A stretch of DNA of 64,000 bases from NCBI GenBank assembly GCA_033439295.1, contig JAVTLE010000013.1, positions 1 through 64,000 on the forward strand. The letters run 5' to 3'. The position numbers and the translations under genes were made by a program. The stretch comes from Deuterostichococcus epilithicus (taxonomy: Eukaryota > Chlorophyta > Trebouxiophyceae > Prasiolales > Stichococcaceae). The notes beneath the pieces were generated by a model that did not search any database, was not told the origin of the DNA, and was given only the letters and a program-made list of their open reading frames with translations. Shown piece by piece: positions 1 to 46,900 of this stretch. Within the stretch, counting starts at the first letter, position 1; each line of letters begins with the position of its first letter.

Positions 1-653
1 GGGCGCCGCACCCACGCCAACACCCCAACTTGCATGCACACGTCTCCACCCCATCGGGGGCCGCGCCACGCGCCGGGGGGCGGTCTGACCACCATCAAAC
101 ACTGTTTCTATGCGTTGGAATGGCCACGCGACAGGTCTCGTCGCCCACGCGCCAGCTTGCGCGACTTACCCCCCCAAATGCACGCACCACACCAGCCGTG
201 CGTTGCGTGTCCCCTAAATGCACCCACCACACCCGCCGTGCTCTGCTCCATTAAAACTCGCTTTTCAAGAGCCACGGCCGCATTGTGTGGCATTGAGGTG
301 GGCTTTCGGTTCACGTGGCACACAAGGGGAAGATCTGACGTGCACCTACGCCGTGCGGGCGGCGGCGTGCCGGACGACCTCAAGGTGGGCCTCTCATGCA
401 CACAGGAGACGTTTGACAAAGCTCCCGCGCCATGCGTGCCGGTTTGAGGTACTTGGCTCCCGGGATGTGTTACGATCGTGGGGGGTAAGTCGCGCAAGCT
501 GGCGCGTGGGCGACGAGACCTGTCGCGTGGCCTTTCCAACGCATAGAAACTGTGTTTGATGGTGGTCAGACCGCCCCACGGCGCGTGGCGCGGCCCACGA
601 TGGGGTGGAGACGTGTGCATGCATGTTGGGGAGTTGGCTTGAGTGCGCCGCAC
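1..653. repeat. Imperfect inverted repeat in the leftmost unit
   Basis: Bases 1-175 are the reverse complement of about 480-653, with scattered mismatches (roughly a dozen by eye), enclosing a loop of about 300 bases. The arms abut C-rich and G-rich runs (169-175 and 480-485). All other units have only the right arm; where the left arm would be they carry an unrelated sequence ending just before the C-run (for example near 2519). The leftmost unit also has an extra degenerate copy of a ~25-bp segment at about 216-240. It may be the TIR pair of an ancestral element or a foldback at the array edge; a foldback assembly error is possible. Confidence 0.75.
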
Positions 654-1176
654 GAGGTGGGGGGCCCAACCATGTGCTTGCCACACCTTTGGGTGCATGC
701 ATGGCCCCCCACCCCTCCCGTGCGCGCGCCGTGTGTTGCACGCCGTGTGCCATCACACCCCCCGGCACCTCAATACTTAAGCCCTTTTATGTACCCAGAA
801 ACACTCGATTTCCTGGAAAATCCGGCGGGGGAGTGCCCCCCCTTTGGTGCCCTTGCATGCGCCCACGGCGGTGGCAAGGCCGGCCCTCTTACACACGGCA
901 TGCCCACGACCTACTGAGGTGCCACGAGGGTGGCGGCGCCCTAGGTGGGGCCACAACGCCTCCCACCTCACTACTTCGATGAGGGGGCCACTAGCACAAC
1001 CACCACACCCTCTTGCAAGTGCCACCATGGCAAGGGGTGGGGCGCGACACCACGAGCGCCACTCCAGACGTGTACCCTGAGTGTGCACCTTCGTTTTGCC
1101 ACCCCACCCCCCGCCATCCACGCTCTACAAGCCGAGCTATGAGGCGCACAATGGGCAAGTGCTCTTCATGCACCCA

Positions 1177-1213
1177 CCCTAAACCCTAAACCCTGAACCT
1201 TAAACCCTAAACC
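1177..1213 (+). repeat. Interstitial telomere tract, C-rich strand
   Basis: Five degenerate heptamers of plant-type CCCTAAA, including one CCCTGAA and one CCTTAAA variant. The tract recurs at 3508, 5839, 8049, 10379, 12711, 15043, 17253 and 19583, each time with the same degenerate heptamers. The orientation is that expected for a left chromosome end. Confidence 0.9.
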
Positions 1214-1289
1214 CATGTGTTTGGGTGCAAGCCATGCACATGCAAAGCCCCCAAGCAAGGCCTCAAGTGTGTGGGTGCTTCATTGCATA

Positions 1290-1855
1290 GGGAGACAAGG
1301 AGGCACTACCCCTTTTCTTTGACCCAATCACAAGCGTGGGCTTCACGAGCAAGCAATGGAGGGTGATGTTTGGGGATCTATGTGAGAAGATATGTGGCAA
1401 GAGGATGGCTCCCAACCTTGCAAGGTGGGCTCTCAATGTAGGGGTGCAAATCCCCATGCAATGCAATGCAATGCAATGCAATGCAATGCAATGTGTGTTG
1501 ATGACACCCCACGCATGCCCACCAAGCTCTTCATAGGTAGAGGCTCACCTTCTTTTCGTTTGTGTGGTGAAGGCACATCACCATTGGTGTGGTGCATGGG
1601 GCAATTCGCCCAATTGAGGGAGCACCCACCAAGGATCAGCTTGCCACGGCCATGGGGCATGCCCCCTCCACGGCCACGAAGCATTATGATCGGACCAAGC
1701 CCCAACGGGATGCCCAAAGGGCCGTGGATGGCATGAAAGCATTGAGGGGTGCCATGAGAGGCAATGTGGCGGGAGTTGGTGTGGGTGGAGAGGAGGTGGA
1801 GGGGGGTGGTGAGGATGTGGAGCATGACATCGAGATCGACCTTGATAGTGACTGA
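1290..1855 (+). pseudogene. Decayed tyrosine-recombinase-like reading frame (one per unit)
   Basis: Two blocks resemble the C-terminal half of phage-integrase/Crypton-type tyrosine recombinases. Block 1 (about 1293-1455) reads FTSKQWRVMFGDLCEKI then APNLAR, like the S-x-x-W...LR stretch before the catalytic Arg. Block 2 (1589-1855, 88 codons) reads LATAMGHAPSTATKHYDR, with Gly-His and a Tyr nine residues after the His, the spacing of the final His and nucleophilic Tyr in XerD-like enzymes. The blocks are in different frames, separated by the ATGCA microsatellite and stops, so no working enzyme is encoded. Copies of block 2 end at 4186, 6517, 8727, 11057, 13389 and 15721; the copies near 17930 and 20260 are frameshifted. 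The family call rests on motif spacing only. Confidence 0.45.
1456..1493 (+). repeat. (ATGCA)7 microsatellite
   Basis: Seven perfect ATGCA pentamers plus a partial one. The same seven copies occur in every unit (for example near 3787, 6118, 8328 and 10658). A constant copy number in such an unstable sequence suggests recent homogenisation of the array. Confidence 0.9.
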
Positions 1856-2254: not shown

Positions 2255-2273
2255 GGGTTTAGGGTTTAGGGGG
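2255..2273 (+). repeat. Interstitial telomere tract, G-rich strand
   Basis: A short tract of TTTAGGG heptamers followed by extra Gs, opposite in orientation to the CCCTAAA tract of the same unit. It recurs at 4586, 6917, 9127, 11457, 13789, 16121, 18331 and 20661. Confidence 0.85.
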
Positions 2274-3507: not shown

Positions 3508-5838
3508 CCCTAAACCCTAAACCCTGAACCTTAAACCCTAAACCCATGTGTTTGGGTGCAAGCCATGCACATGCAAAGCCCCCAAGCAAGGCCTCAAGTG
3601 TGTGGGTGCTTCATTGCATAGGGAGACAAGGAGGCACTACCCCTTTTCTTTGACCCAATCACAAGCGTGGGCTTCACGAGCAAGCAATGGAGGGTGATGT
3701 TTGGGGATCTATGTGAGAAGATATGTGGCAAGAGGATGGCTCCCAACCTTGCAAGGTGGGCTCTCAATGTAGGGGTGCAAATCCCCATGCAATGCAATGC
3801 AATGCAATGCAATGCAATGCAATGTGTGTTGATGACACCCCACGCATGCCCACCAAGCTCTTCATAGGTAGAGGCTCACCTTCTTTTCGTTTGTGTGGTG
3901 AAGGCACATCACCATTGGTGTGGTGCATGGGGCAATTCGCCCAATTGAGGGAGCACCCACCAAGGATCAGCTTGCCACGGCCATGGGGCATGCCCCCTCC
4001 ACGGCCACGAAGCATTATGATCGGACCAAGCCCCAACGGGATGCCCAAAGGGCCGTGGATGGCATGAAAGCATTGAGGGGTGCCATGAGAGGCAATGTGG
4101 CGGGAGTTGGTGTGGGTGGAGAGGAGGTGGAGGGGGGTGGTGAGGATGTGGAGCATGACATCGAGATCGACCTTGATAGTGACTGATGGTGGGACACCAG
4201 GTGTGCCTCAGCCCATTGGCAAGCCACCACATGTGGGGTTCTAGGGTGGTGAGCCACCCTCCACCAAGAATTTGTGTGTCACGGACCCCCTTGCCTTCGG
4301 CGGCCGACAGCTCAAAATGCAGAGCACTTGTGGTTCAAGCTCAGGCCGTGGCTGCCTGCGCCATGTCACGACGAGCATCTGGAGCTAATCAGATCTGGAT
4401 TCCGCCCATCGAGAGCTATGATTTTCTGACTCGAAGTAGCCATGTGTGCCTATATATTACCAATATAAAAATGAAATCATGCACTGTAGCGACCAGGAAC
4501 ACCATGTAACGGCCTCCCGCGTGGCTGACGGCCATGTCACGTGGCCCCCACATGGTGGCGAACCTCCCGTGCGTGGCTGGGTCAAGGGTTTAGGGTTTAG
4601 GGGGTGGTCGATTGAGGTTGGCACCCCTTGGGCCCCTTGGACTTTGAGATGAGGTTGCTGTGCGCAAACGGGGTGTATTCGGAAGGAAACTTGGCCAGGC
4701 GCCTAGCTGAGGCCTCTGCGGTGCCGCTGCCGGTCGCCACGTCCAGATCCGAGGTCAGACGCTCGAGCTATGGCCATTCCCGTGCCATGGGGAAGCCCAA
4801 CATGTGTCCGCTCATTGAGCCGCCGGCCCGACTCCCGACCATGCCTCCGACCCCCCAAATGCACGCACCACACCAGCCGTGCGTTGCGTGTCCCCTCCCA
4901 CGCTCTGCTCCATTAAAACTCGCTTTTCAAGAGCCACGGCCGCATTGTGTGGCATTGAGGTGGGCTTTCGGTTCACGTGGCACACAAGGGGAAGATCTGA
5001 CGTGCACCTACGCCGTGCGGGCGGCGGCGTGCCGGACGACCTCAAGGTGGGCCTCTCATGCACACAGGAGACGTTTGACAAAGCTCCCGCGCCATGCGTG
5101 CCGGTTTGAGGTACTTGGCTCCCGGGATGTGTTACGATCGTGGGGGGGTAAGTCGCGCAAGCTGGCGCGTGGGCGACGAGACCTGTCGCGTGGCCTTTCC
5201 AACGCATAGAAACTGTGTTTGATGGTGGTCAGACCGCCCCACGGCGCGTGGCGCGGCCCACGATGGGGTGGAGACGTGTGCATGCATGTTGGGGAGTTGG
5301 CTTGAGTGCGCCGCACGAGGTGGGGGGCCCAACCATGTGCTTGCCACACCTTTGGGTGCATGCATGGCCCCCCACCCCTCCCGTGCGCGCGCCGTGTGTT
5401 GCACGCCGTGTGCCATCACACCCCCGGCACCTCAATACTTAAGCCCTTTTATGTACCCAGAAACACTCGATTTCCTGGAAAATCCGGCGGGGGAGTGCCC
5501 CCCCTTTGGTGCCCTTGCATGCGCCCACGGCGGTGGCAAGGCCGGCCCTCTTACACACGGCATGCCCACGACCTACTGAGGTGCCACGAGGGTGGCGGCG
5601 CCCTAGGTGGGGCCACAACGCCTCCCACCTCACTACTTCGATGAGGGGGCCACTAGCACAACCACCACACCCTCTTGCAAGTGCCACCATGGCAAGGGGT
5701 GGGGCGCGACACCACGAGCGCCACTCCAGACGTGTACCCTGAGTGTGCACCTTCGTTTTGCCACCCCACCCCCCGCCATCCACGCTCTACAAGCCGAGCT
5801 ATGAGGCGCACAATGGGCAAGTGCTCTTCATGCACCCA
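3508..5838. repeat. Array unit B (2331 bp)
   Basis: Differs from unit A by a six-C run near 4853 and a seven-G run near 5143, so the length is unchanged. It shares the seven-G marker with unit F, its higher-order partner. Confidence 0.9.
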
Positions 5839-8048
5839 CCCTAAACCCTAAACCCTGAACCTTAAACCCTAAACCCATGTGTTTGGGTGCAAGCCATGCA
5901 CATGCAAAGCCCCCAAGCAAGGCCTCAAGTGTGTGGGTGCTTCATTGCATAGGGAGACAAGGAGGCACTACCCCTTTTCTTTGACCCAATCACAAGCGTG
6001 GGCTTCACGAGCAAGCAATGGAGGGTGATGTTTGGGGATCTATGTGAGAAGATATGTGGCAAGAGGATGGCTCCCAACCTTGCAAGGTGGGCTCTCAATG
6101 TAGGGGTGCAAATCCCCATGCAATGCAATGCAATGCAATGCAATGCAATGCAATGTGTGTTGATGACACCCCACGCATGCCCACCAAGCTCTTCATAGGT
6201 AGAGGCTCACCTTCTTTTCGTTTGTGTGGTGAAGGCACATCACCATTGGTGTGGTGCATGGGGCAATTCGCCCAATTGAGGGAGCACCCACCAAGGATCA
6301 GCTTGCCACGGCCATGGGGCATGCCCCCTCCACGGCCACGAAGCATTATGATCGGACCAAGCCCCAACGGGATGCCCAAAGGGCCGTGGATGGCATGAAA
6401 GCATTGAGGGGTGCCATGAGAGGCAATGTGGCGGGAGTTGGTGTGGGTGGAGAGGAGGTGGAGGGGGGTGGTGAGGATGTGGAGCATGACATCGAGATCG
6501 ACCTTGATAGTGACTGATGGTGGGACACCAGGTGTGCCTCAGCCCATTGGCAAGCCACCACATGTGGGGTTCTAGGGTGGTGAGCCACCCTCCACCAAGA
6601 ATTTGTGTGTCACGGACCCCCTTGCCTTCGGCGGCCGACAGCTCAAAATGCAGAGCACTTGTGGTTCAAGCTCAGGCCGTGGCTGCCTGCGCCATGTCAC
6701 GACGAGCATCTGGAGCTAATCAGATCTGGATTCCGCCCATCGAGAGCTATGATTTTCTGACTCGAAGTAGCCATGTGTGCCTATATATTACCAATATAAA
6801 AATGAAATCATGCACTGTAGCGACCAGGAACACCATGTAACGGCCTCCCGCGTGGCTGACGGCCATGTCACGTGGCCCCCACATGGTGGCGAACCTCCCG
6901 TGCGTGGCTGGGTCAAGGGTTTAGGGTTTAGGGGGTGGTCGATTGAGGTTGGCACCCCTTGGGCCCCTTGGACTTTGAGATGAGGTTGCTGTGCGCAAAC
7001 GGGGTGTATTCGGAAGGAAACTTGGCCAGGCGCCTAGCTGAGGCCTCTGCGGTGCCGCTGCCGGTCGCCACGTCCAGATCCGAGGTCAGACGCTCGAGCT
7101 ATGGCCATTCCCGTGCCATGGGGAAGCCCAACATGTGTCCGCTCATTGAGCCGCCGGCCCGACTCCCGACCATGCCTCCGACCCCCCAAATGCACGCACC
7201 ACACCAGCCGTGCGTTGCGTGTCCCCTCCCACGCTCTGCTCCATTAAAACTCGCTTTTCAAGAGCCACGGCCGCATTGTGTGGCATTGAGGTGGGCTTTC
7301 GGTTCACGTGGCACACAAGGGGAAGATCTGACGTGCACCTACGCCGTGCGGGCGGCGGCGTGCCGGACGACCTCAAGGTGGGCCTCTCATGCACACAGGA
7401 GACGTTTGACAAAGCTCCCGCGCCATGCGTGCCGGTTTGAGGTACTTGGCTCCCGGGATGTGTTACGATCGTGGGGGGGTAAGTCGCGCAAGCTGGCGCG
7501 TGGGCGACGAGACCTGTCGCGTGGCGGAGGTGGGGGGCCCAACCATGTGCTTGCCACACCTTTGGGTGCATGCATGGCCCCCCACCCCTCCCGTGCGCGC
7601 GCCGTGTGTTGCACGCCGTGTGCCATCACACCCCCGGCACCTCAATACTTAAGCCCTTTTATGTACCCAGAAACACTCGATTTCCTGGAAAATCCGGCGG
7701 GGGAGTGCCCCCCCTTTGGTGCCCTTGCATGCGCCCACGGCGGTGGCAAGGCCGGCCCTCTTACACACGGCATGCCCACGACCTACTGAGGTGCCACGAG
7801 GGTGGCGGCGCCCTAGGTGGGGCCACAACGCCTCCCACCTCACTACTTCGATGAGGGGGCCACTAGCACAACCACCACACCCTCTTGCAAGTGCCACCAT
7901 GGCAAGGGGTGGGGCGCGACACCACGAGCGCCACTCCAGACGTGTACCCTGAGTGTGCACCTTCGTTTTGCCACCCCACCCCCCGCCATCCACGCTCTAC
8001 AAGCCGAGCTATGAGGCGCACAATGGGCAAGTGCTCTTCATGCACCCA
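5839..8048. repeat. Array unit C, short form (2210 bp)
   Basis: Has a net 121-bp deletion at about 7525/7526 that removes most of the right arm of the inverted repeat; the bases around the junction differ by one from a simple excision. Six-C and seven-G runs match unit B. It is repeated as unit G exactly 9204 bp to the right. Confidence 0.92.
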
Positions 8049-10378
8049 CCCTAAACCCTAAACCCTGAACCTTAAACCCTAAACCCATGTGTTTGGGTGC
8101 AAGCCATGCACATGCAAAGCCCCCAAGCAAGGCCTCAAGTGTGTGGGTGCTTCATTGCATAGGGAGACAAGGAGGCACTACCCCTTTTCTTTGACCCAAT
8201 CACAAGCGTGGGCTTCACGAGCAAGCAATGGAGGGTGATGTTTGGGGATCTATGTGAGAAGATATGTGGCAAGAGGATGGCTCCCAACCTTGCAAGGTGG
8301 GCTCTCAATGTAGGGGTGCAAATCCCCATGCAATGCAATGCAATGCAATGCAATGCAATGCAATGTGTGTTGATGACACCCCACGCATGCCCACCAAGCT
8401 CTTCATAGGTAGAGGCTCACCTTCTTTTCGTTTGTGTGGTGAAGGCACATCACCATTGGTGTGGTGCATGGGGCAATTCGCCCAATTGAGGGAGCACCCA
8501 CCAAGGATCAGCTTGCCACGGCCATGGGGCATGCCCCCTCCACGGCCACGAAGCATTATGATCGGACCAAGCCCCAACGGGATGCCCAAAGGGCCGTGGA
8601 TGGCATGAAAGCATTGAGGGGTGCCATGAGAGGCAATGTGGCGGGAGTTGGTGTGGGTGGAGAGGAGGTGGAGGGGGGTGGTGAGGATGTGGAGCATGAC
8701 ATCGAGATCGACCTTGATAGTGACTGATGGTGGGACACCAGGTGTGCCTCAGCCCATTGGCAAGCCACCACATGTGGGGTTCTAGGGTGGTGAGCCACCC
8801 TCCACCAAGAATTTGTGTGTCACGGACCCCCTTGCCTTCGGCGGCCGACAGCTCAAAATGCAGAGCACTTGTGGTTCAAGCTCAGGCCGTGGCTGCCTGC
8901 GCCATGTCACGACGAGCATCTGGAGCTAATCAGATCTGGATTCCGCCCATCGAGAGCTATGATTTTCTGACTCGAAGTAGCCATGTGTGCCTATATATTA
9001 CCAATATAAAAATGAAATCATGCACTGTAGCGACCAGGAACACCATGTAACGGCCTCCCGCGTGGCTGACGGCCATGTCACGTGGCCCCCACATGGTGGC
9101 GAACCTCCCGTGCGTGGCTGGGTCAAGGGTTTAGGGTTTAGGGGGTGGTCGATTGAGGTTGGCACCCCTTGGGCCCCTTGGACTTTGAGATGAGGTTGCT
9201 GTGCGCAAACGGGGTGTATTCGGAAGGAAACTTGGCCAGGCGCCTAGCTGAGGCCTCTGCGGTGCCGCTGCCGGTCGCCACGTCCAGATCCGAGGTCAGA
9301 CGCTCGAGCTATGGCCATTCCCGTGCCATGGGGAAGCCCAACATGTGTCCGCTCATTGAGCCGCCGGCCCGACTCCCGACCATGCCTCCGACCCCCCAAA
9401 TGCACGCACCACACCAGCCGTGCGTTGCGTGTCCCCTCCCACGCTCTGCTCCATTAAAACTCGCTTTTCAAGAGCCACGGCCGCATTGTGTGGCATTGAG
9501 GTGGGCTTTCGGTTCACGTGGCACACAAGGGGAAGATCTGACGTGCACCTACGCCGTGCGGGCGGCGGCGTGCCGGACGACCTCAAGGTGGGCCTCTCAT
9601 GCACACAGGAGACGTTTGACAAAGCTCCCGCGCCATGCGTGCCGGTTTGAGGTACTTGGCTCCCGGGATGTGTTACGATCGTGGGGGGTAAGTCGCGCAA
9701 GCTGGCGCGTGGGCGACGAGACCTGTCGCGTGGCCTTTCCAACGCATAGAAACTGTGTTTGATGGTGGTCAGACCGCCCCACGGCGCGTGGCGCGGCCCA
9801 CGATGGGGTGGAGACGTGTGCATGCATGTTGGGGAGTTGGCTTGAGTGCGCCGCACGAGGTGGGGGGCCCAACCATGTGCTTGCCACACCTTTGGGTGCA
9901 TGCATGGCCCCCCACCCCTCCCGTGCGCGCGCCGTGTGTTGCACGCCGTGTGCCATCACACCCCCGGCACCTCAATACTTAAGCCCTTTTATGTACCCAG
10001 AAACACTCGATTTCCTGGAAAATCCGGCGGGGGAGTGCCCCCCCTTTGGTGCCCTTGCATGCGCCCACGGCGGTGGCAAGGCCGGCCCTCTTACACACGG
10101 CATGCCCACGACCTACTGAGGTGCCACGAGGGTGGCGGCGCCCTAGGTGGGGCCACAACGCCTCCCACCTCACTACTTCGATGAGGGGGCCACTAGCACA
10201 ACCACCACACCCTCTTGCAAGTGCCACCATGGCAAGGGGTGGGGCGCGACACCACGAGCGCCACTCCAGACGTGTACCCTGAGTGTGCACCTTCGTTTTG
10301 CCACCCCACCCCCCGCCATCCACGCTCTACAAGCCGAGCTATGAGGCGCACAATGGGCAAGTGCTCTTCATGCACCCA
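8049..10378. repeat. Array unit D (2330 bp)
   Basis: Full-length form with six-C and six-G runs, one base shorter than unit A. Its higher-order partner is unit H, which reaches the same length by a different pair of single-base changes. Confidence 0.9.
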
Positions 10379-12710
10379 CCCTAAACCCTAAACCCTGAAC
10401 CTTAAACCCTAAACCCATGTGTTTGGGTGCAAGCCATGCACATGCAAAGCCCCCAAGCAAGGCCTCAAGTGTGTGGGTGCTTCATTGCATAGGGAGACAA
10501 GGAGGCACTACCCCTTTTCTTTGACCCAATCACAAGCGTGGGCTTCACGAGCAAGCAATGGAGGGTGATGTTTGGGGATCTATGTGAGAAGATATGTGGC
10601 AAGAGGATGGCTCCCAACCTTGCAAGGTGGGCTCTCAATGTAGGGGTGCAAATCCCCATGCAATGCAATGCAATGCAATGCAATGCAATGCAATGTGTGT
10701 TGATGACACCCCACGCATGCCCACCAAGCTCTTCATAGGTAGAGGCTCACCTTCTTTTCGTTTGTGTGGTGAAGGCACATCACCATTGGTGTGGTGCATG
10801 GGGCAATTCGCCCAATTGAGGGAGCACCCACCAAGGATCAGCTTGCCACGGCCATGGGGCATGCCCCCTCCACGGCCACGAAGCATTATGATCGGACCAA
10901 GCCCCAACGGGATGCCCAAAGGGCCGTGGATGGCATGAAAGCATTGAGGGGTGCCATGAGAGGCAATGTGGCGGGAGTTGGTGTGGGTGGAGAGGAGGTG
11001 GAGGGGGGTGGTGAGGATGTGGAGCATGACATCGAGATCGACCTTGATAGTGACTGATGGTGGGACACCAGGTGTGCCTCAGCCCATTGGCAAGCCACCA
11101 CATGTGGGGTTCTAGGGTGGTGAGCCACCCTCCACCAAGAATTTGTGTGTCACGGACCCCCTTGCCTTCGGCGGCCGACAGCTCAAAATGCAGAGCACTT
11201 GTGGTTCAAGCTCAGGCCGTGGCTGCCTGCGCCATGTCACGACGAGCATCTGGAGCTAATCAGATCTGGATTCCGCCCATCGAGAGCTATGATTTTCTGA
11301 CTCGAAGTAGCCATGTGTGCCTATATATTACCAATATAAAAATGAAATCATGCACTGTAGCGACCAGGAACACCATGTAACGGCCTCCCGCGTGGCTGAC
11401 GGCCATGTCACGTGGCCCCCACATGGTGGCGAACCTCCCGTGCGTGGCTGGGTCAAGGGTTTAGGGTTTAGGGGGGTGGTCGATTGAGGTTGGCACCCCT
11501 TGGGCCCCTTGGACTTTGAGATGAGGTTGCTGTGCGCAAACGGGGTGTATTCGGAAGGAAACTTGGCCAGGCGCCTAGCTGAGGCCTCTGCGGTGCCGCT
11601 GCCGGTCGCCACGTCCAGATCCGAGGTCAGACGCTCGAGCTATGGCCATTCCCGTGCCATGGGGAAGCCCAACATGTGTCCGCTCATTGAGCCGCCGGCC
11701 CGACTCCCGACCATGCCTCCGACCCCCCCAAATGCACGCACCACACCAGCCGTGCGTTGCGTGTCCCCTCCCACGCTCTGCTCCATTAAAACTCGCTTTT
11801 CAAGAGCCACGGCCGCATTGTGTGGCATTGAGGTGGGCTTTCGGTTCACGTGGCACACAAGGGGAAGATCTGACGTGCACCTACGCCGTGCGGGCGGCGG
11901 CGTGCCGGACGACCTCAAGGTGGGCCTCTCATGCACACAGGAGACGTTTGACAAAGCTCCCGCGCCATGCGTGCCGGTTTGAGGTACTTGGCTCCCGGGA
12001 TGTGTTACGATCGTGGGGGGTAAGTCGCGCAAGCTGGCGCGTGGGCGACGAGACCTGTCGCGTGGCCTTTCCAACGCATAGAAACTGTGTTTGATGGTGG
12101 TCAGACCGCCCCACGGCGCGTGGCGCGGCCCACGATGGGGTGGAGACGTGTGCATGCATGTTGGGGAGTTGGCTTGAGTGCGCCGCACGAGGTGGGGGGC
12201 CCAACCATGTGCTTGCCACACCTTTGGGTGCATGCATGGCCCCCCACCCCTCCCGTGCGCGCGCCGTGTGTTGCACGCCGTGTGCCATCACACCCCCGGC
12301 ACCTCAATACTTAAGCCCTTTTATGTACCCAGAAACACTCGATTTCCTGGAAAATCCGGCGGGGGAGTGCCCCCCCTTTGGTGCCCTTGCATGCGCCCAC
12401 GGCGGTGGCAAGGCCGGCCCTCTTACACACGGCATGCCCACGACCTACTGAGGTGCCACGAGGGTGGCGGCGCCCTAGGTGGGGCCACAACGCCTCCCAC
12501 CTCACTACTTCGATGAGGGGGCCACTAGCACAACCACCACACCCTCTTGCAAGTGCCACCATGGCAAGGGGTGGGGCGCGACACCACGAGCGCCACTCCA
12601 GACGTGTACCCTGAGTGTGCACCTTCGTTTTGCCACCCCACCCCCCGCCATCCACGCTCTACAAGCCGAGCTATGAGGCGCACAATGGGCAAGTGCTCTT
12701 CATGCACCCA
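10379..12710. repeat. Array unit E (2332 bp)
   Basis: Carries an extra G directly after the TTTAGGG tract (tract begins 11457), a marker shared only with unit I. Seven-C and six-G runs agree with units A and I. Confidence 0.9.
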
Positions 12711-15042
12711 CCCTAAACCCTAAACCCTGAACCTTAAACCCTAAACCCATGTGTTTGGGTGCAAGCCATGCACATGCAAAGCCCCCAAGCAAGGCCTCAA
12801 GTGTGTGGGTGCTTCATTGCATAGGGAGACAAGGAGGCACTACCCCTTTTCTTTGACCCAATCACAAGCGTGGGCTTCACGAGCAAGCAATGGAGGGTGA
12901 TGTTTGGGGATCTATGTGAGAAGATATGTGGCAAGAGGATGGCTCCCAACCTTGCAAGGTGGGCTCTCAATGTAGGGGTGCAAATCCCCATGCAATGCAA
13001 TGCAATGCAATGCAATGCAATGCAATGTGTGTTGATGACACCCCACGCATGCCCACCAAGCTCTTCATAGGTAGAGGCTCACCTTCTTTTCGTTTGTGTG
13101 GTGAAGGCACATCACCATTGGTGTGGTGCATGGGGCAATTCGCCCAATTGAGGGAGCACCCACCAAGGATCAGCTTGCCACGGCCATGGGGCATGCCCCC
13201 TCCACGGCCACGAAGCATTATGATCGGACCAAGCCCCAACGGGATGCCCAAAGGGCCGTGGATGGCATGAAAGCATTGAGGGGTGCCATGAGAGGCAATG
13301 TGGCGGGAGTTGGTGTGGGTGGAGAGGAGGTGGAGGGGGGTGGTGAGGATGTGGAGCATGACATCGAGATCGACCTTGATAGTGACTGATGGTGGGACAC
13401 CAGGTGTGCCTCAGCCCATTGGCAAGCCACCACATGTGGGGTTCTAGGGTGGTGAGCCACCCTCCACCAAGAATTTGTGTGTCACGGACCCCCTTGCCTT
13501 CGGCGGCCGACAGCTCAAAATGCAGAGCACTTGTGGTTCAAGCTCAGGCCGTGGCTGCCTGCGCCATGTCACGACGAGCATCTGGAGCTAATCAGATCTG
13601 GATTCCGCCCATCGAGAGCTATGATTTTCTGACTCGAAGTAGCCATGTGTGCCTATATATTACCAATATAAAAATGAAATCATGCACTGTAGCGACCAGG
13701 AACACCATGTAACGGCCTCCCGCGTGGCTGACGGCCATGTCACGTGGCCCCCACATGGTGGCGAACCTCCCGTGCGTGGCTGGGTCAAGGGTTTAGGGTT
13801 TAGGGGGTGGTCGATTGAGGTTGGCACCCCTTGGGCCCCTTGGACTTTGAGATGAGGTTGCTGTGCGCAAACGGGGTGTATTCGGAAGGAAACTTGGCCA
13901 GGCGCCTAGCTGAGGCCTCTGCGGTGCCGCTGCCGGTCGCCACGTCCAGATCCGAGGTCAGACGCTCGAGCTATGGCCATTCCCGTGCCATGGGGAAGCC
14001 CAACATGTGTCCGCTCATTGAGCCGCCGGCCCGACTCCCGACCATGCCTCCGACCCCCCAAATGCACGCACCACACCAGCCGTGCGTTGCGTGTCCCCTC
14101 CCACGCTCTGCTCCATTAAAACTCGCTTTTCAAGAGCCACGGCCGCATTGTGTGGCATTGAGGTGGGCTTTCGGTTCACGTGGCACACAAGGGGAAGATC
14201 TGACGTGCACCTACGCCGTGCGGGCGGCGGCGTGCCGGACGACCTCAAGGTGGGCCTCTCATGCACACAGGAGACGTTTGACAAAGCTCCCGCGCCATGC
14301 GTGCCGGTTTGAGGTACTTGGCTCCCGGGATGTGTTACGATCGTGGGGGGGTAAGTCGCGCAAGCTGGCGCGTGGGCGACGAGACCTGTCGCGTGGCCTT
14401 TCCAACGCATAGAAACTGTGTTTGATGGTGGTCAGACCGCCCCACGGCGCGTGGCGCGGCCCACGATGGGGTGGAGACGTGTGCATGCATGTTGGGGAGT
14501 TGGCTTGAGTGCGCCGCACGAGGTGGGGGGCCCAACCATGTGCTTGCCACACCTTTGGGTGCATGCATGGCCCCCCACCCCTCCCGTGCGCGCGCCGTGT
14601 GTTGCACGCCGTGTGCCATCACACCCCCCGGCACCTCAATACTTAAGCCCTTTTATGTACCCAGAAACACTCGATTTCCTGGAAAATCCGGCGGGGGAGT
14701 GCCCCCCCTTTGGTGCCCTTGCATGCGCCCACGGCGGTGGCAAGGCCGGCCCTCTTACACACGGCATGCCCACGACCTACTGAGGTGCCACGAGGGTGGC
14801 GGCGCCCTAGGTGGGGCCACAACGCCTCCCACCTCACTACTTCGATGAGGGGGCCACTAGCACAACCACCACACCCTCTTGCAAGTGCCACCATGGCAAG
14901 GGGTGGGGCGCGACACCACGAGCGCCACTCCAGACGTGTACCCTGAGTGTGCACCTTCGTTTTGCCACCCCACCCCCCGCCATCCACGCTCTACAAGCCG
15001 AGCTATGAGGCGCACAATGGGCAAGTGCTCTTCATGCACCCA
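12711..15042. repeat. Array unit F (2332 bp)
   Basis: Matches unit B (six-C, seven-G) but has one extra C in the C-run near 14625, also seen at the left edge (near 760) and in unit I (near 21495). Confidence 0.9.
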
Positions 15043-17252
15043 CCCTAAACCCTAAACCCTGAACCTTAAACCCTAAACCCATGTGTTTGGGTGCAAGCCA
15101 TGCACATGCAAAGCCCCCAAGCAAGGCCTCAAGTGTGTGGGTGCTTCATTGCATAGGGAGACAAGGAGGCACTACCCCTTTTCTTTGACCCAATCACAAG
15201 CGTGGGCTTCACGAGCAAGCAATGGAGGGTGATGTTTGGGGATCTATGTGAGAAGATATGTGGCAAGAGGATGGCTCCCAACCTTGCAAGGTGGGCTCTC
15301 AATGTAGGGGTGCAAATCCCCATGCAATGCAATGCAATGCAATGCAATGCAATGCAATGTGTGTTGATGACACCCCACGCATGCCCACCAAGCTCTTCAT
15401 AGGTAGAGGCTCACCTTCTTTTCGTTTGTGTGGTGAAGGCACATCACCATTGGTGTGGTGCATGGGGCAATTCGCCCAATTGAGGGAGCACCCACCAAGG
15501 ATCAGCTTGCCACGGCCATGGGGCATGCCCCCTCCACGGCCACGAAGCATTATGATCGGACCAAGCCCCAACGGGATGCCCAAAGGGCCGTGGATGGCAT
15601 GAAAGCATTGAGGGGTGCCATGAGAGGCAATGTGGCGGGAGTTGGTGTGGGTGGAGAGGAGGTGGAGGGGGGTGGTGAGGATGTGGAGCATGACATCGAG
15701 ATCGACCTTGATAGTGACTGATGGTGGGACACCAGGTGTGCCTCAGCCCATTGGCAAGCCACCACATGTGGGGTTCTAGGGTGGTGAGCCACCCTCCACC
15801 AAGAATTTGTGTGTCACGGACCCCCTTGCCTTCGGCGGCCGACAGCTCAAAATGCAGAGCACTTGTGGTTCAAGCTCAGGCCGTGGCTGCCTGCGCCATG
15901 TCACGACGAGCATCTGGAGCTAATCAGATCTGGATTCCGCCCATCGAGAGCTATGATTTTCTGACTCGAAGTAGCCATGTGTGCCTATATATTACCAATA
16001 TAAAAATGAAATCATGCACTGTAGCGACCAGGAACACCATGTAACGGCCTCCCGCGTGGCTGACGGCCATGTCACGTGGCCCCCACATGGTGGCGAACCT
16101 CCCGTGCGTGGCTGGGTCAAGGGTTTAGGGTTTAGGGGGTGGTCGATTGAGGTTGGCACCCCTTGGGCCCCTTGGACTTTGAGATGAGGTTGCTGTGCGC
16201 AAACGGGGTGTATTCGGAAGGAAACTTGGCCAGGCGCCTAGCTGAGGCCTCTGCGGTGCCGCTGCCGGTCGCCACGTCCAGATCCGAGGTCAGACGCTCG
16301 AGCTATGGCCATTCCCGTGCCATGGGGAAGCCCAACATGTGTCCGCTCATTGAGCCGCCGGCCCGACTCCCGACCATGCCTCCGACCCCCCAAATGCACG
16401 CACCACACCAGCCGTGCGTTGCGTGTCCCCTCCCACGCTCTGCTCCATTAAAACTCGCTTTTCAAGAGCCACGGCCGCATTGTGTGGCATTGAGGTGGGC
16501 TTTCGGTTCACGTGGCACACAAGGGGAAGATCTGACGTGCACCTACGCCGTGCGGGCGGCGGCGTGCCGGACGACCTCAAGGTGGGCCTCTCATGCACAC
16601 AGGAGACGTTTGACAAAGCTCCCGCGCCATGCGTGCCGGTTTGAGGTACTTGGCTCCCGGGATGTGTTACGATCGTGGGGGGGTAAGTCGCGCAAGCTGG
16701 CGCGTGGGCGACGAGACCTGTCGCGTGGCGGAGGTGGGGGGCCCAACCATGTGCTTGCCACACCTTTGGGTGCATGCATGGCCCCCCACCCCTCCCGTGC
16801 GCGCGCCGTGTGTTGCACGCCGTGTGCCATCACACCCCCGGCACCTCAATACTTAAGCCCTTTTATGTACCCAGAAACACTCGATTTCCTGGAAAATCCG
16901 GCGGGGGAGTGCCCCCCCTTTGGTGCCCTTGCATGCGCCCACGGCGGTGGCAAGGCCGGCCCTCTTACACACGGCATGCCCACGACCTACTGAGGTGCCA
17001 CGAGGGTGGCGGCGCCCTAGGTGGGGCCACAACGCCTCCCACCTCACTACTTCGATGAGGGGGCCACTAGCACAACCACCACACCCTCTTGCAAGTGCCA
17101 CCATGGCAAGGGGTGGGGCGCGACACCACGAGCGCCACTCCAGACGTGTACCCTGAGTGTGCACCTTCGTTTTGCCACCCCACCCCCCGCCATCCACGCT
17201 CTACAAGCCGAGCTATGAGGCGCACAATGGGCAAGTGCTCTTCATGCACCCA
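15043..17252. repeat. Array unit G, short form (2210 bp)
   Basis: Has the same net 121-bp deletion as unit C, with the junction at about 16729/16730. The identical breakpoint shows that the two short units are copies of one event, not two independent deletions. Confidence 0.92.
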
Positions 17253-19582
17253 CCCTAAACCCTAAACCCTGAACCTTAAACCCTAAACCCATGTGTTTGG
17301 GTGCAAGCCATGCACATGCAAAGCCCCCAAGCAAGGCCTCAAGTGTGTGGGTGCTTCATTGCATAGGGAGACAAGGAGGCACTACCCCTTTTCTTTGACC
17401 CAATCACAAGCGTGGGCTTCACGAGCAAGCAATGGAGGGTGATGTTTGGGGATCTATGTGAGAAGATATGTGGCAAGAGGATGGCTCCCAACCTTGCAAG
17501 GTGGGCTCTCAATGTAGGGGTGCAAATCCCCATGCAATGCAATGCAATGCAATGCAATGCAATGCAATGTGTGTTGATGACACCCCACGCATGCCCACCA
17601 AGCTCTTCATAGGTAGAGGCTCACCTTCTTTTCGTTTGTGTGGTGAAGGCACATCACCATTGGTGTGGTGCATGGGGCAATTCGCCCAATTGAGGGAGCA
17701 CCCACCAAGGATCAGCTTGCCACGGCCATGGGGCATGCCCCCTCCACGGCCACGAAGCATTATGATCGGACCAAGCCCCAACGGGATGCCCAAAGGGCCG
17801 TGGATGGCATGAAAGCATTGAGGGGTGCCATGAGAGGCAATGTGGCGGGAGTTGGTGTGGGTGGAGAGGAGGTGGAGGGGGTGGTGAGGATGTGGAGCAT
17901 GACATCGAGATCGACCTTGATAGTGACTGATGGTGGGACACCAGGTGTGCCTCAGCCCATTGGCAAGCCACCACATGTGGGGTTCTAGGGTGGTGAGCCA
18001 CCCTCCACCAAGAATTTGTGTGTCACGGACCCCCTTGCCTTCGGCGGCCGACAGCTCAAAATGCAGAGCACTTGTGGTTCAAGCTCAGGCCGTGGCTGCC
18101 TGCGCCATGTCACGACGAGCATCTGGAGCTAATCAGATCTGGATTCCGCCCATCGAGAGCTATGATTTTCTGACTCGAAGTAGCCATGTGTGCCTATATA
18201 TTACCAATATAAAAATGAAATCATGCACTGTAGCGACCAGGAACACCATGTAACGGCCTCCCGCGTGGCTGACGGCCATGTCACGTGGCCCCCACATGGT
18301 GGCGAACCTCCCGTGCGTGGCTGGGTCAAGGGTTTAGGGTTTAGGGGGTGGTCGATTGAGGTTGGCACCCCTTGGGCCCCTTGGACTTTGAGATGAGGTT
18401 GCTGTGCGCAAACGGGGTGTATTCGGAAGGAAACTTGGCCAGGCGCCTAGCTGAGGCCTCTGCGGTGCCGCTGCCGGTCGCCACGTCCAGATCCGAGGTC
18501 AGACGCTCGAGCTATGGCCATTCCCGTGCCATGGGGAAGCCCAACATGTGTCCGCTCATTGAGCCGCCGGCCCGACTCCCGACCATGCCTCCGACCCCCC
18601 CAAATGCACGCACCACACCAGCCGTGCGTTGCGTGTCCCCTCCCACGCTCTGCTCCATTAAAACTCGCTTTTCAAGAGCCACGGCCGCATTGTGTGGCAT
18701 TGAGGTGGGCTTTCGGTTCACGTGGCACACAAGGGGAAGATCTGACGTGCACCTACGCCGTGCGGGCGGCGGCGTGCCGGACGACCTCAAGGTGGGCCTC
18801 TCATGCACACAGGAGACGTTTGACAAAGCTCCCGCGCCATGCGTGCCGGTTTGAGGTACTTGGCTCCCGGGATGTGTTACGATCGTGGGGGGTAAGTCGC
18901 GCAAGCTGGCGCGTGGGCGACGAGACCTGTCGCGTGGCCTTTCCAACGCATAGAAACTGTGTTTGATGGTGGTCAGACCGCCCCACGGCGCGTGGCGCGG
19001 CCCACGATGGGGTGGAGACGTGTGCATGCATGTTGGGGAGTTGGCTTGAGTGCGCCGCACGAGGTGGGGGGCCCAACCATGTGCTTGCCACACCTTTGGG
19101 TGCATGCATGGCCCCCCACCCCTCCCGTGCGCGCGCCGTGTGTTGCACGCCGTGTGCCATCACACCCCCGGCACCTCAATACTTAAGCCCTTTTATGTAC
19201 CCAGAAACACTCGATTTCCTGGAAAATCCGGCGGGGGAGTGCCCCCCCTTTGGTGCCCTTGCATGCGCCCACGGCGGTGGCAAGGCCGGCCCTCTTACAC
19301 ACGGCATGCCCACGACCTACTGAGGTGCCACGAGGGTGGCGGCGCCCTAGGTGGGGCCACAACGCCTCCCACCTCACTACTTCGATGAGGGGGCCACTAG
19401 CACAACCACCACACCCTCTTGCAAGTGCCACCATGGCAAGGGGTGGGGCGCGACACCACGAGCGCCACTCCAGACGTGTACCCTGAGTGTGCACCTTCGT
19501 TTTGCCACCCCACCCCCCGCCATCCACGCTCTACAAGCCGAGCTATGAGGCGCACAATGGGCAAGTGCTCTTCATGCACCCA
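17253..19582. repeat. Array unit H (2330 bp)
   Basis: Lacks one G in the G-run near 17875, which shifts the frame at the end of the recombinase-like block. Seven-C and six-G runs are present. Confidence 0.9.
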
Positions 19583-21914
19583 CCCTAAACCCTAAACCCT
19601 GAACCTTAAACCCTAAACCCATGTGTTTGGGTGCAAGCCATGCACATGCAAAGCCCCCAAGCAAGGCCTCAAGTGTGTGGGTGCTTCATTGCATAGGGAG
19701 ACAAGGAGGCACTACCCCTTTTCTTTGACCCAATCACAAGCGTGGGCTTCACGAGCAAGCAATGGAGGGTGATGTTTGGGGATCTATGTGAGAAGATATG
19801 TGGCAAGAGGATGGCTCCCAACCTTGCAAGGTGGGCTCTCAATGTAGGGGTGCAAATCCCCATGCAATGCAATGCAATGCAATGCAATGCAATGCAATGT
19901 GTGTTGATGACACCCCACGCATGCCCACCAAGCTCTTCATAGGTAGAGGCTCACCTTCTTTTCGTTTGTGTGGTGAAGGCACATCACCATTGGTGTGGTG
20001 CATGGGGCAATTCGCCCAATTGAGGGAGCACCCACCAAGGATCAGCTTGCCACGGCCATGGGGCATGCCCCTCCACGGCCACGAAGCATTATGATCGGAC
20101 CAAGCCCCAACGGGATGCCCAAAGGGCCGTGGATGGCATGAAAGCATTGAGGGGTGCCATGAGAGGCAATGTGGCGGGAGTTGGTGTGGGTGGAGAGGAG
20201 GTGGAGGGGGGTGGTGAGGATGTGGAGCATGACATCGAGATCGACCTTGATAGTGACTGATGGTGGGACACCAGGTGTGCCTCAGCCCATTGGCAAGCCA
20301 CCACATGTGGGGTTCTAGGGTGGTGAGCCACCCTCCACCAAGAATTTGTGTGTCACGGACCCCCTTGCCTTCGGCGGCCGACAGCTCAAAATGCAGAGCA
20401 CTTGTGGTTCAAGCTCAGGCCGTGGCTGCCTGCGCCATGTCACGACGAGCATCTGGAGCTAATCAGATCTGGATTCCGCCCATCGAGAGCTATGATTTTC
20501 TGACTCGAAGTAGCCATGTGTGCCTATATATTACCAATATAAAAATGAAATCATGCACTGTAGCGACCAGGAACACCATGTAACGGCCTCCCGCGTGGCT
20601 GACGGCCATGTCACGTGGCCCCCACATGGTGGCGAACCTCCCGTGCGTGGCTGGGTCAAGGGTTTAGGGTTTAGGGGGGTGGTCGATTGAGGTTGGCACC
20701 CCTTGGGCCCCTTGGACTTTGAGATGAGGTTGCTGTGCGCAAACGGGGTGTATTCGGAAGGAAACTTGGCCAGGCGCCTAGCTGAGGCCTCTGCGGTGCC
20801 GCTGCCGGTCGCCACGTCCAGATCCGAGGTCAGACGCTCGAGCTATGGCCATTCCCGTGCCATGGGGAAGCCCAACATGTGTCCGCTCATTGAGCCGCCG
20901 GCCCGACTCCCGACCATGCCTCCGACCCCCCCAAATGCACGCACCACACCAGCCGTGCGTTGCGTGTCCCCTCCCACGCTCTGCTCCATTAAAACTCGCT
21001 TTTCAAGAGCCACGGCCGCATTGTGTGGCATTGAGGTGGGCTTTCGGTTCACGTGGCACACAAGGGGAAGATCTGACGTGCACCTACGCCGTGCGGGCGG
21101 CGGCGTGCCGGACGACCTCAAGGTGGGCCTCTCATGCACACAGGAGACGTTTGACAAAGCTCCCGCGCCATGCGTGCCGGTTTGAGGTACTTGGCTCCCG
21201 GGATGTGTTACGATCGTGGGGGGTAAGTCGCGCAAGCTGGCGCGTGGGCGACGAGACCTGTCGCGTGGCCTTTCCAACGCATAGAAACTGTGTTTGATGG
21301 TGGTCAGACCGCCCCACGGCGCGTGGCGCGGCCCACGATGGGGTGGAGACGTGTGCATGCATGTTGGGGAGTTGGCTTGAGTGCGCCGCACGAGGTGGGG
21401 GGCCCAACCATGTGCTTGCCACACCTTTGGGTGCATGCATGGCCCCCCACCCCTCCCGTGCGCGCGCCGTGTGTTGCACGCCGTGTGCCATCACACCCCC
21501 CGGCACCTCAATACTTAAGCCCTTTTATGTACCCAGAAACACTCGATTTCCTGGAAAATCCGGCGGGGGAGTGCCCCCCCTTTGGTGCCCTTGCATGCGC
21601 CCACGGCGGTGGCAAGGCCGGCCCTCTTACACACGGCATGCCCACGACCTACTGAGGTGCCACGAGGGTGGCGGCGCCCTAGGTGGGGCCACAACGCCTC
21701 CCACCTCACTACTTCGATGAGGGGGCCACTAGCACAACCACCACACCCTCTTGCAAGTGCCACCATGGCAAGGGGTGGGGCGCGACACCACGAGCGCCAC
21801 TCCAGACGTGTACCCTGAGTGTGCACCTTCCTTTTGCTACCCCACCCCCCGCCATCCACGCTCTAAAAGCCGAGCTATGAGGCGCACAATGGGCAAGTGC
21901 TCTTCATGCACCCA
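19583..21914. repeat. Array unit I (2332 bp), last complete unit
   Basis: Shares the extra G after TTTAGGG (tract begins 20661) with unit E. It lacks one C near 20070, which breaks the frame inside the recombinase-like motif. Its right end holds three substitutions (21831, 21838 and 21866) not seen in the other copies. Confidence 0.9.
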
Positions 21915-21927
21915 CCCTAAACCCTAA
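21915..21927 (+). repeat. Truncated telomere tract at the array boundary
   Basis: The last CCCTAAA tract stops after 13 bases, and unrelated sequence starts at 21928. The array therefore ends inside the telomere-type tract and not at a random point in the unit. Confidence 0.85.
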
Positions 21928-43956: not shown

Positions 43957-46900
43957 GGCAGCGGCGGCGGCGGCGAAAGCGGCAGCGACGGTTGCTGCGG
44001 CTGCGCCGCCGGCGCCTCGTCGGCTGAGGCCGCCTGGCTGGCCCAGCGGGATGCAAAGATGGACTCCTGCCGCCGCACCTGCGGCCGCTGCGGCTGCTCG
44101 GCGGGCGGCCCCGCCTCCGGATCCTGCTGCAACTCTGGCTGCCGCTCAGGCTCGATCGGGATTGGCTCAACCGGCAGCACCGCTGCCTGCTGTGCAGGTG
44201 CCTCTTGGGACGGTGCCTGCTCCGGAAGCGTGCCTGCAGCCGGAGCAACGCCCTGCCCCTGGCTGGCCCACCGGGCGGCAAACACTGACTGCTGCGATGC
44301 CGGCTGGAGCTCTGCCTGCTGCGGCTCTGGCGCTGGCGGCGCAGCGGCATGCTGCCCTGCATCCGGCACGCCATCTGGCTCATGGAAACCATGGTCGGGG
44401 GCGGGATCAGGCCTTGGCGGCGCAACCGATGGGGCCGGATCTGCGGCCCAGCGGGAGGCGAAAACGGATTGTGTGTGCAATGGCGATCGCTGTGGCGGGT
44501 GTTCGTATGGTGGTGCCTCAGCCGCCGCCTGCTGCTGCTGTTGCTGCTGTGCCGCCTGTTGCAGCGTCGCCGCTGGCAGCTCGTTGGGTGCCGCAGCCGC
44601 CGACTGACTGCTGGCGCTGCTTAGCAGGGACGCCGCAGCAACTGGTGCCGGCACTGGCAGTCCGGATGATGTGTAGTGGGCCACCGACATGTCTGCGGTC
44701 CGCGCTGCCTGGCCGTCAGCAGATCCGCCATTCTGGCCGCCGGCTGCGGTGCTGGACTTGTATCCGGAGGCGTCATAGTAGGGTGCCACAACGTGGGGGT
44801 GGAATACGGGGCCGGCCGCCGGCTGGTTGCGCATGGCATAGAAGGCGGCGTCAGGCGGCGCGTGCGATGCCGGCGGTATGCGGTGGCCTGCAGACAGAGA
44901 GCTGACGCCAGATGAGGGTTGACTGTTTGTGCAGGATCCATGTGTCATTGTACACGCCATGGATGACACGTGCGGGCAAGTGCTGGAAGAGGGAGAGGGA
45001 GAGGGAGGGCGCGGCACTCGAGATTCCGCTGTCCGCTGCAACTACAGCAGTAAAAAATGTCGGCTAAAAGGCATGTCTCGTCTCCCACCTGTGTAGGGGC
45101 TGTAGTCTAACTGCCGACGGCCGTACTGGTCGTAGACCGGGCCCGGGTGCTGATACGGCTGCGCGCCAGCATGCCATCCCGACGGCTGCCCGATGGCGTA
45201 GCCCCCGCCCGGGGGCACGGCGTGCAACCCCGCCGCTGCAGCCGCCGCCGCCTCCTGCTGCTTCTGCAGCGCGATGCGCTGGACCAGGGAAATTGGCTGC
45301 GGCGCTGGCTCCTGCATCTGCGGCAGCATCTCTGGCGGCGGCGGCTGCCAGTCCGGGAACCTGCACGAGGATTATGCAGCATTAGTGGCTGTAAGGTTCA
45401 GTGGAGAGTCGATGCCGCATGCAATGAATGTCAAGCACAGGCCTGGAGGGGTTGCAGAAAGGGGGCTGCTGGTGTGCACACACTCTGTGGGACAAGCATG
45501 CCAGCTTGCCTGGATTGGTTGCCCCATCGCTGCTGCGCAGCCGCCACAGTCGCCAGCGAGATCTCGTGGCTGGCCTGCCGCTGGGCGCTGGAGTAGCTGT
45601 ATGCGCTGGTTGACTGCTGCCACGACTCGGTGTGCTGCAGTGGGCCGTGGCCATACTGCCCATATGGCGGGGTCGGCAGCGCCGCGGGCGACTCGAGCGC
45701 CTGCTGGTACGGCGTCGTTGGTTGCCGCGGCGGCGCGGCTGCCGCCTGCTCGCTTCCTGCTGGTCCGCCAGCGACACCGGGTGTGGGCCCCGCTGCCGGG
45801 GTCGCACCGCCGCCGTTCTGACCCGCACTTGTGGGGGAGCCGCTGCCGTCACCGCCACCGGCATGGGGCACCTGCACGTGCAGGCCGGCGCTGGCGGCGA
45901 TGTCTTCCTGCGCCGCCTGCACATCAGCCGCAGCCGGCGTGTCCAGGCGCATGATGCGGAAGCTACCACCGCCAGGCGCCTGCGAGCCGCCAGGGTCTGG
46001 CGATACGAGCGGCGTCGCGGGCGGTGTTGGCCGGGAAGCTTGCCCGAGCATGTCCCCCCACGCGTTCGGTGCCGGCACCGCGGCGGCAGCCCCCTCGTCC
46101 CGGGCGACTGCGGCGGCAGAAGCCTGCCTGACGCTGACAGGGTCCACCGGAGGCGACGCCACTGGCGAGCTGACAGCTGTGAGACCGCCGCCGCCGCCCT
46201 GGCTGGCCCAGCGGTCTGCAAAGACCGACTTTACAGGTGGTGCAGCACGCGGCGCTGGCTGCTCGTCCGCCGCCTCGGCCTCGTCCATGACTTCTGCCGC
46301 CGCCGGCACTGCCGACTGCTTTGAGAACGACGCCACAGGCGGCAGCGGCGGCCGTGCGGCCTGGCCGGTCGCACCGCTGGTGAGGCCGCCGCCGTTGGCG
46401 TCGCCGCGGGTCGGCTGCGCCGTGCCCGTCGCGCGGCGATGGGACATGCTCAGGCGCACCACCCCCTCTGCGGCGCTGTCCGCCGCTGCTGCAGGTGCTG
46501 TGTCCGGCCGCGATGTGGCCTGCAAGCCGTCGCTGGCTTGCCGGATGAGCTCGCTGAGGCGCACCCGGGCGTCTGCTCCCTCTTGTGACGTGCGCGTGCC
46601 GGCGGCCTCTGGCTGCGGCGGCTGCTGCCCGCCCTGCGACGCTGCCTGCGTCTGGAGCGTGTCCTTTTTGGCCTTCAGCCACGCCAGCACCTGTTGCTTC
46701 ATCGGCTCATTGGACACCAGGCGGCTGCTGGTGAGGCGCTGCTTGGTCTCCGGGCATGTGTCCAGGCCCCTGCGCGGTTGCACCATTTAGCGGCCGTTCA
46801 ACATGTGCTTCGATGGTGCTCTGAAAAGCTGCATGCGCTGCGTGGGCTGTTTGAGGGCATGTACCAGCCGCAGCAGCAAGAATTGGCCACAGCTACACCG

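Follow-up and report, generated by a model that had tools for sequence, protein, structure and literature searches.

A probable tyrosine-recombinase gene relic in the subtelomeric satellite of the green alga Deuterostichococcus epilithicus

The window analyzed here, 64,000 nucleotides at the left end of contig 11 in the 46.8-Mb, 21-contig genome of D. epilithicus (JAVTLE010000013.1, positions 1 to 64,000, forward strand), opens with a subtelomeric satellite array (1-21927, plus strand) of about nine units of 2.33 kb, two of these being 2.21 kb. The explanation that we favor, and consider reasonably probable, is that the satellite carries a passenger fragment of a decayed tyrosine-recombinase (TR) gene and was spread by recombination. 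Each unit would hold the two final coding blocks of such an intron-bearing gene. They cover the catalytic domain over its C-terminal half, starting shortly ahead of the second catalytic Arg and running beyond the nucleophilic Tyr. Loss of function is likely; we infer both this loss and the recombination route, the latter from the borders and near identity of the copies. In the best literature matches, no title or abstract opening mentions a TR relic within a subtelomeric satellite of an alga.

Coding blocks, predicted intron and recombinase homology

The motif GHAPSTATKHY lies in a frame at 1589-1855 that translates as VVHGAIRPIEGAPTKDQLATAMGHAPSTATKHYDR...DSD*. The sequence-only reading had placed this motif in every satellite unit; it is in frame in eight of the nine window units, but the ninth (block at 19696) is frameshifted by a 1-base deletion in a C run within the motif. 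The in-frame degenerate pattern MGHxxxTAxxxYDR was matched by 8/9 units and had 0 matches in 100 dinucleotide shuffles of the window. The recombinase-type spacing claimed for the motif holds, with a His-to-Tyr distance of 9 as in most PF00589 loci fetched, e.g., GHSDISTTTIY. On viral contigs, the bare pattern (slightly shortened) gave three matches, none of which was a TR by reading; the bare motif is thus no specific mark of TRs. Searches of viral contigs with peptide patterns found no close relatives. The same reading had described an upstream block, in another frame, as resembling the region before the catalytic Arg. The block does occupy another frame, open from 1291 through 1424 and further, with an acceptor-like CATAG ending at 1290; its alignment end, however, is the second catalytic Arg itself (R45), which the block does not merely precede. 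We refer to the upstream coding block as exon A (1291-1424, plus strand; GDKEALPLFF...KRMAPNLA-AG) and to the C-terminal coding block with its stop codon as exon B (1573-1855, plus strand), which carries GHAPSTATKHYDR at 1655-1693.

A predicted GT-AG intron containing (ATGCA)n separates the two blocks (1425-1572, plus strand; donor GCAAG-GTGGGC, acceptor GTGGTGAAG then GC), and exons A and B join in phase to give 138 codons with the stop at 1853-1855. The (ATGCA)n stretch, with 6-14 repeats among copies, lies wholly inside the predicted intron, whose length ranges from 139 to 183 nt, while exon A measures 134 nt in 18 of the 19 scored copies. Among 45 GT-AG pairs scored with the family profile lacking its seed protein, 1425-1572 reached 22.9 bits and 1444-1618 reached 23.3 bits; with the profile that includes locus L121, the intron 1444-1618 leads with 27.5 vs 25.6 bits for 1425-1572. 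The two introns thus score equivalently, and both the splicing and its exact boundary are predictions. Based on the donor consensus, the intron 1425-1572 was used for most searches, and 1444-1618 served for a second set of curated-library and plasmid tblastn searches. The TR conclusion is independent of the exact splice boundary because both blocks score unspliced.

The homology was assessed with two profiles. The seed-free family profile was composed of four loci (L124, L125, L126 and L128) that had been retrieved by the Geminocystis seed protein, itself left out, rather than by the window. Against this profile, the spliced product scored 22.9 bits and the single blocks 6.7 (block 1) and 12.9 (block 2); no shuffle exceeded 8.2 bits (5000 made, 3148 reported) and no decoy ORF exceeded 2.6 (455 in all). 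A general TR profile, built from 25 of 30 PF00589 loci after five were dropped by the motif filter or the frame finder, gave 10.7 bits for the spliced product, 11.9 for block 2 and -2.8 for block 1, with maxima of 5.7 for shuffles and 5.3 for decoys. Six aligned sequences all share F27, P41, R45, M72, G73 and Y83. At normal spacing, the product keeps the second catalytic Arg (R45), the His before the Tyr (H74) and the nucleophilic Tyr (Y83); the HxxR box has Asn in place of His, and Lys/Tyr are also absent there. For the first catalytic Arg and the beta-hairpin Lys, the full-length family profile was silent upstream in the unit and in an open frame at the left end of contig 16 (described below). 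The same profile gave block 1 just 4.8 bits, so the upstream TR part may have been missed.

The loci retrieved by the spliced query point in the same direction. A tblastn search of plasmids returned 48 records, and among the 20 listed the two with the lowest E-values are annotated TRs (Geminocystis, E 0.1; Pseudonocardia, E 0.4); the other listed matches are non-TRs with E 1 to 8. With the alternative splice, TRs made up four of nine records, namely Geminocystis (E 0.04, the best match and an annotated TR), two Nostoc proteins (0.08 and 0.2) and Pseudonocardia (9), interspersed with non-TRs from Streptomyces (E 0.1) and Methylobacterium (E 0.3). The two Nostoc proteins, encoded on plasmids and carrying a hypothetical annotation (L160, 270-2357; L161, 291-2378), belong by profile to the large TR family, with ~270 bits against the family profile and ~30 against the general TR profile. 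The Geminocystis protein itself stays under the curated cut-off of PF00589, with 24.2 bits and E 3e-5. The reversed query gave 33 plasmid records with no annotated TR among the 20 listed, and phage records yielded five weak matches to the query without an annotated TR.

In 386 cyanobacterial genomes searched at E up to 1, the query matched 93 genomes and the reversed query 67. Six L121-type TR loci were recovered (L121, L124, L125, L126, L128 and the second L121-like locus of genome G049), while the second L121-like locus of genome G152 was missed; the reversed query recovered none of the L121-type loci. Twenty-six cyanobacterial matches were of one kind, covering query positions ~55-104 in frames of 389-475 aa, and all four examined were TRs; the other top matches inspected (L154-L156) were not TRs. 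Raw E-values were rejected as proof of homology, given that the best cyanobacterial match of the query had E 7.9e-4 and that of the reversed query 1.9e-3. Since the reversed query reached a similar E, the case for homology rests on which loci were matched and on the profile scores.

Although the profiles with their controls, the retrieved loci and the alignment all agree with the TR reading, the curated profile libraries do not bear it out. The profile check that the sequence-only reading had called for gave no recombinase match up to E 10 in Pfam, PHROGs or NCBIfam for single blocks or spliced forms, PF00589 included. HMMER filters drop most matches above ~0.1, which makes this a weak test for fragments. 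DUF3504 was not matched in Pfam, and PF12012 was silent in the genome as well as in all 14 controls; the PF00589 profile had no match in the D. epilithicus genome, and a PDB sequence search returned nothing relevant. The silence of the curated families, together with the three non-TR proteins matched by the bare motif, would suit a likeness arising by chance or from general compositional similarity. We regard this as very improbable, as the two blocks are collinear on the same profile region and 0/5000 shuffles reach the spliced score, and we consider the blocks very probably homologous to TRs. When the genome was searched with L121 and an L128 piece, no TR was found, the single match of the L121 search (E 0.235) lying in the N-terminal half of L121. 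As even the satellite copies escaped both searches, an intact TR may have been overlooked as well.

Integrity and conservation of the copies

The whole spliced ORF is kept in 15 of the 19 copies scored. In the window, the first copy (1290-1855) is followed by intact spliced ORFs, all on the plus strand, in unit 2 (3621-4186), unit 3 (5952-6517), unit 4 (8162-8727), unit 5 (10492-11057), unit 6 (12824-13389) and unit 7 (15156-15721). Unit 8 (17366-17930, plus strand) has a frameshift in the Gly-rich tail and unit 9 (19696-20260, plus strand) the one within the GH...Y motif; the other two frameshifted copies are at the left and right ends of contig 7, and that at the right end adjoins poor contig-end sequence. 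The copies at the right end of contig 11 (exon B only) and the right end of contig 12, as well as the contig-4 pieces, are additional to these 19. In the contig-12 copy, which the scoring pattern did not pick up, exon A carries an indel event and codon 112 is a stop.

Eight arms show hardly any change between a point just past the telomere-like tract and ~50 bp beyond the stop; over the 600 bp that follow, most of these arms diverge by at least a few percent. The predicted intron and the exons are equally invariant in this comparison, which argues for block homogenisation rather than selection on a protein. Three diverged copies have synonymous/nonsynonymous changes of 3/5, 2/4 and 4/10, and the other five copies compared have 0 or 1 change. 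Purifying selection as proof of function was rejected, on account of the lacking synonymous excess and the equally invariant intron.

At the left end of contig 16 (L075, 1-477), a 178-codon open frame lies upstream of the block, with no telomere tract; the frame breaks off ~20 nt into exon A and is followed by other DNA. Its upstream part (104 aa) occurs once in the genome by tblastn, at the contig end, and is not recognized by the TR profile. This frame may represent a further piece of the original gene.

These observations bear on whether some copies still give rise to a TR-derived host protein, whose last exons the satellite would hold. Such a domestication would agree with the ORF kept in 15/19 copies, the nearly invariant TR block and the upstream open frame of contig 16, and we consider it quite unlikely: homogenisation of the block suffices where the intron is equally invariant, nonsynonymous changes outnumber synonymous ones in all three diverged copies, and the upstream part is found a single time at a contig end. 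Based on sequence, a relic is likelier than an enzyme, considering the Asn in the HxxR box, the lack of a recognized first-Arg/Lys part, the frameshifts in 4/19 copies and the missing synonymous excess. The caveat is that the retained ORFs and near-invariance of the block make constraint conceivable. As a relic, the TR fragment would be a passive passenger of the satellite, and would illustrate how the gene of a mobile element comes to serve as filler at chromosome ends.

Array anatomy, chromosome-end borders and spread

The TR blocks of the window start at 1290, 3621, 5952, 8162, 10492, 12824, 15156, 17366 and 19696, with successive unit spacings of 2331, 2331, 2210, 2330, 2332, 2332, 2210 and 2330. 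A telomere-like tract (CCCTAAA)n occurs once per unit (1176-1214, plus strand; unit positions 990-1028), 76 bp upstream of exon A. A second telomere-like tract, GGGTTTAGGGTTTAGGGGG (2255-2273, plus strand), is also present once per unit in the opposite orientation to the tract at 1176, so that inverted telomere-like tracts flank the TR-bearing 1.1 kb. At the right end of contig 12, this 1.1-kb module is present and most of the remaining unit is absent. Approximately 120 bp (unit positions 347-468) are missing from two units (7182-9389 and 16386-18592); as these shortened units are four units apart, a higher-order repeat of ~9.2 kb is suggested. Window positions 1-174 are an inverted copy of ~475-650, a fold-back at the extreme contig end, and inverted unit pieces are also found at the left ends of contigs 7, 12 and 13 and the right ends of contigs 10 and 12.

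The array gives way to unique DNA at 21927 via a CCCTAAA tract. Beyond it, the window contains long minus-strand frames at 45434-46786 and 48669-50114 with weak U-box matches just below the Pfam cut-off, and a frame at 56107-56889 with an elongation-factor domain 2 match below the cut-off. Elsewhere in the assembly, contig 21 (211 kb) opens with an AT-rich stretch that, by eye, we take to be plastid rpoC1. CCCTAAA/TTTAGGG arrays begin or end several contigs. Both features suit a photosynthetic eukaryote, and an excerpt of PMC8226300 gives TTTAGGG as the ancestral form among green algae.

The proposal that the satellite had spread at a chromosome end is supported by the block positions and inner borders, and extends to many ends. 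At least 22 places hold the TR block: the window has nine, a further twelve lie within ~1.1 kb of contig ends, and the last is inside contig 4. All copies found thus lie at contig ends except this last one, a TR-block fragment of ~160 bp (L030, 1505-1666; contig 4, 151579-151740). It sits within a region that by eye resembles a gene of the small-GTPase or SRP-receptor-beta type, and is possibly filler DNA from break repair. Contig 4 also begins with the last codons of exon B. Unit parts without the TR block are present at the right ends of contigs 4, 13 and 15 and the left end of contig 17.

Inner borders could be read on ten arms, and on nine of them the last unit inward ends in a CCCTAAA tract (unit positions 998-1016, degenerate) beside arm-specific DNA. 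This count excludes the left ends of contigs 7, 9, 12, 13, 15 and 18, where the sequence covered stops short of the inner border. Inner borders without a telomere tract were seen at the right end of contig 12 and the left end of contig 16. At the right ends of contigs 4, 13 and 15, genuine telomeres cap units cut at differing positions. The units are therefore tandem chromosome-end repeats bounded by interstitial telomere tracts on 9/10 arms. A fixed inner border at the tract combined with variable outer ends matches outward copying from a telomere-tract seed. In such a process, an eroded end would recombine with an interstitial telomere tract and copy outward, by break-induced replication or unequal exchange; recombination of this kind probably seeded the arrays and carried them from arm to arm, as in yeast Y' elements.

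The same borders are also predicted by insertion into telomere repeats. The unit would then be the remains of a telomere-inserting TR element, a circular DNA integrated in telomere repeats, with arrays formed by repeated integration or by recombination. Telomere-repeat-inserting TR elements are known from endogenous nimaviruses of crustaceans, according to an excerpt of PMC10871703. The telomere repeats expected to flank such an element are found on the inner side of 9/10 arms and once per array unit, so that CCCTAAA tracts of the same orientation bound units on both sides, and the TR blocks lie only ~76 bp from the tract. We nevertheless find this origin improbable. Homologous recombination at telomere tracts predicts identical borders; no full-length TR was recognized in the unit and no intact copy was found, in searches of limited power; and at the left ends of contigs 9, 15 and 16 and the right end of contig 14, the block start is preceded by other sequence in place of a telomere tract. 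Recombination is favored over insertion because only part of a TR was recognized. The sequence-only reading had the satellite either born from a TR mobile element or capturing one; either may hold, as the unit shows a recognizable TR gene in its 3' part alone.

Comparison with known systems

Cryptons are described in an excerpt of PMC3212892 as eukaryotic TR-only DNA transposons. Compared with them, the satellite has neither a DUF3504 profile match nor demonstrated Crypton-type element ends, and membership among the Cryptons is unproven. With the nimaviral TR elements (PMC10871703, excerpt), the satellite shares a TR beside telomere repeats at the element border; those elements are large, viral and equipped with a TR gene, whereas the satellite unit is 2.3 kb and holds a fragment. 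A TR relic next to an interstitial telomere tract links a site-specific recombinase to the chromosome-end repeat. The unit could be a degenerate TR mobile element that used the telomere repeat as its integration site at chromosome ends, formed tandem arrays with its telomeric attachment sites as borders, and decayed into a subtelomeric satellite, which we think unlikely. Subtelomeres would then have been built by a site-specific recombinase in a eukaryote, apparently with no virus involved. A recombinase-element origin of the subtelomere becomes testable in related algae.

The large TRs of cyanobacterial plasmids (Geminocystis pGM3709_03 WP_066122233.1, 735 aa; Nostoc BBD63543.1 and WP_251961053.1) have a C-terminus collinear with that of the satellite product, F..L....GkR..P.l.R ... 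LA.AMGH...T...Y(D/E)R..P. The cyanobacterial proteins are full length with PHxxR, whereas in the satellite only the C-terminal half is recognized, the box reads PNLAR, an intron is predicted and the setting is eukaryotic and nuclear. Among green algae, the Sultan repeats of Chlamydomonas are also a subtelomeric satellite with telomere-like spacers, built of shorter units, and we know of no recombinase in them. The Y' elements of yeast are unrelated to the satellite in telomere type and sequence. An excerpt of PMC13177704 describes Y' elements as tandem, subtelomeric and coding for a potential helicase, often split by interstitial telomere sequences, and gives an outward copying route from the telomere tract. 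The D. epilithicus satellite resembles them in combining tandem subtelomeric units with telomere tracts and coding sequence, carrying a putative TR relic where Y' carries a potential helicase; as with the helicase ORF of Y' elements, the coding sequence of a satellite can give a clue to its origin.
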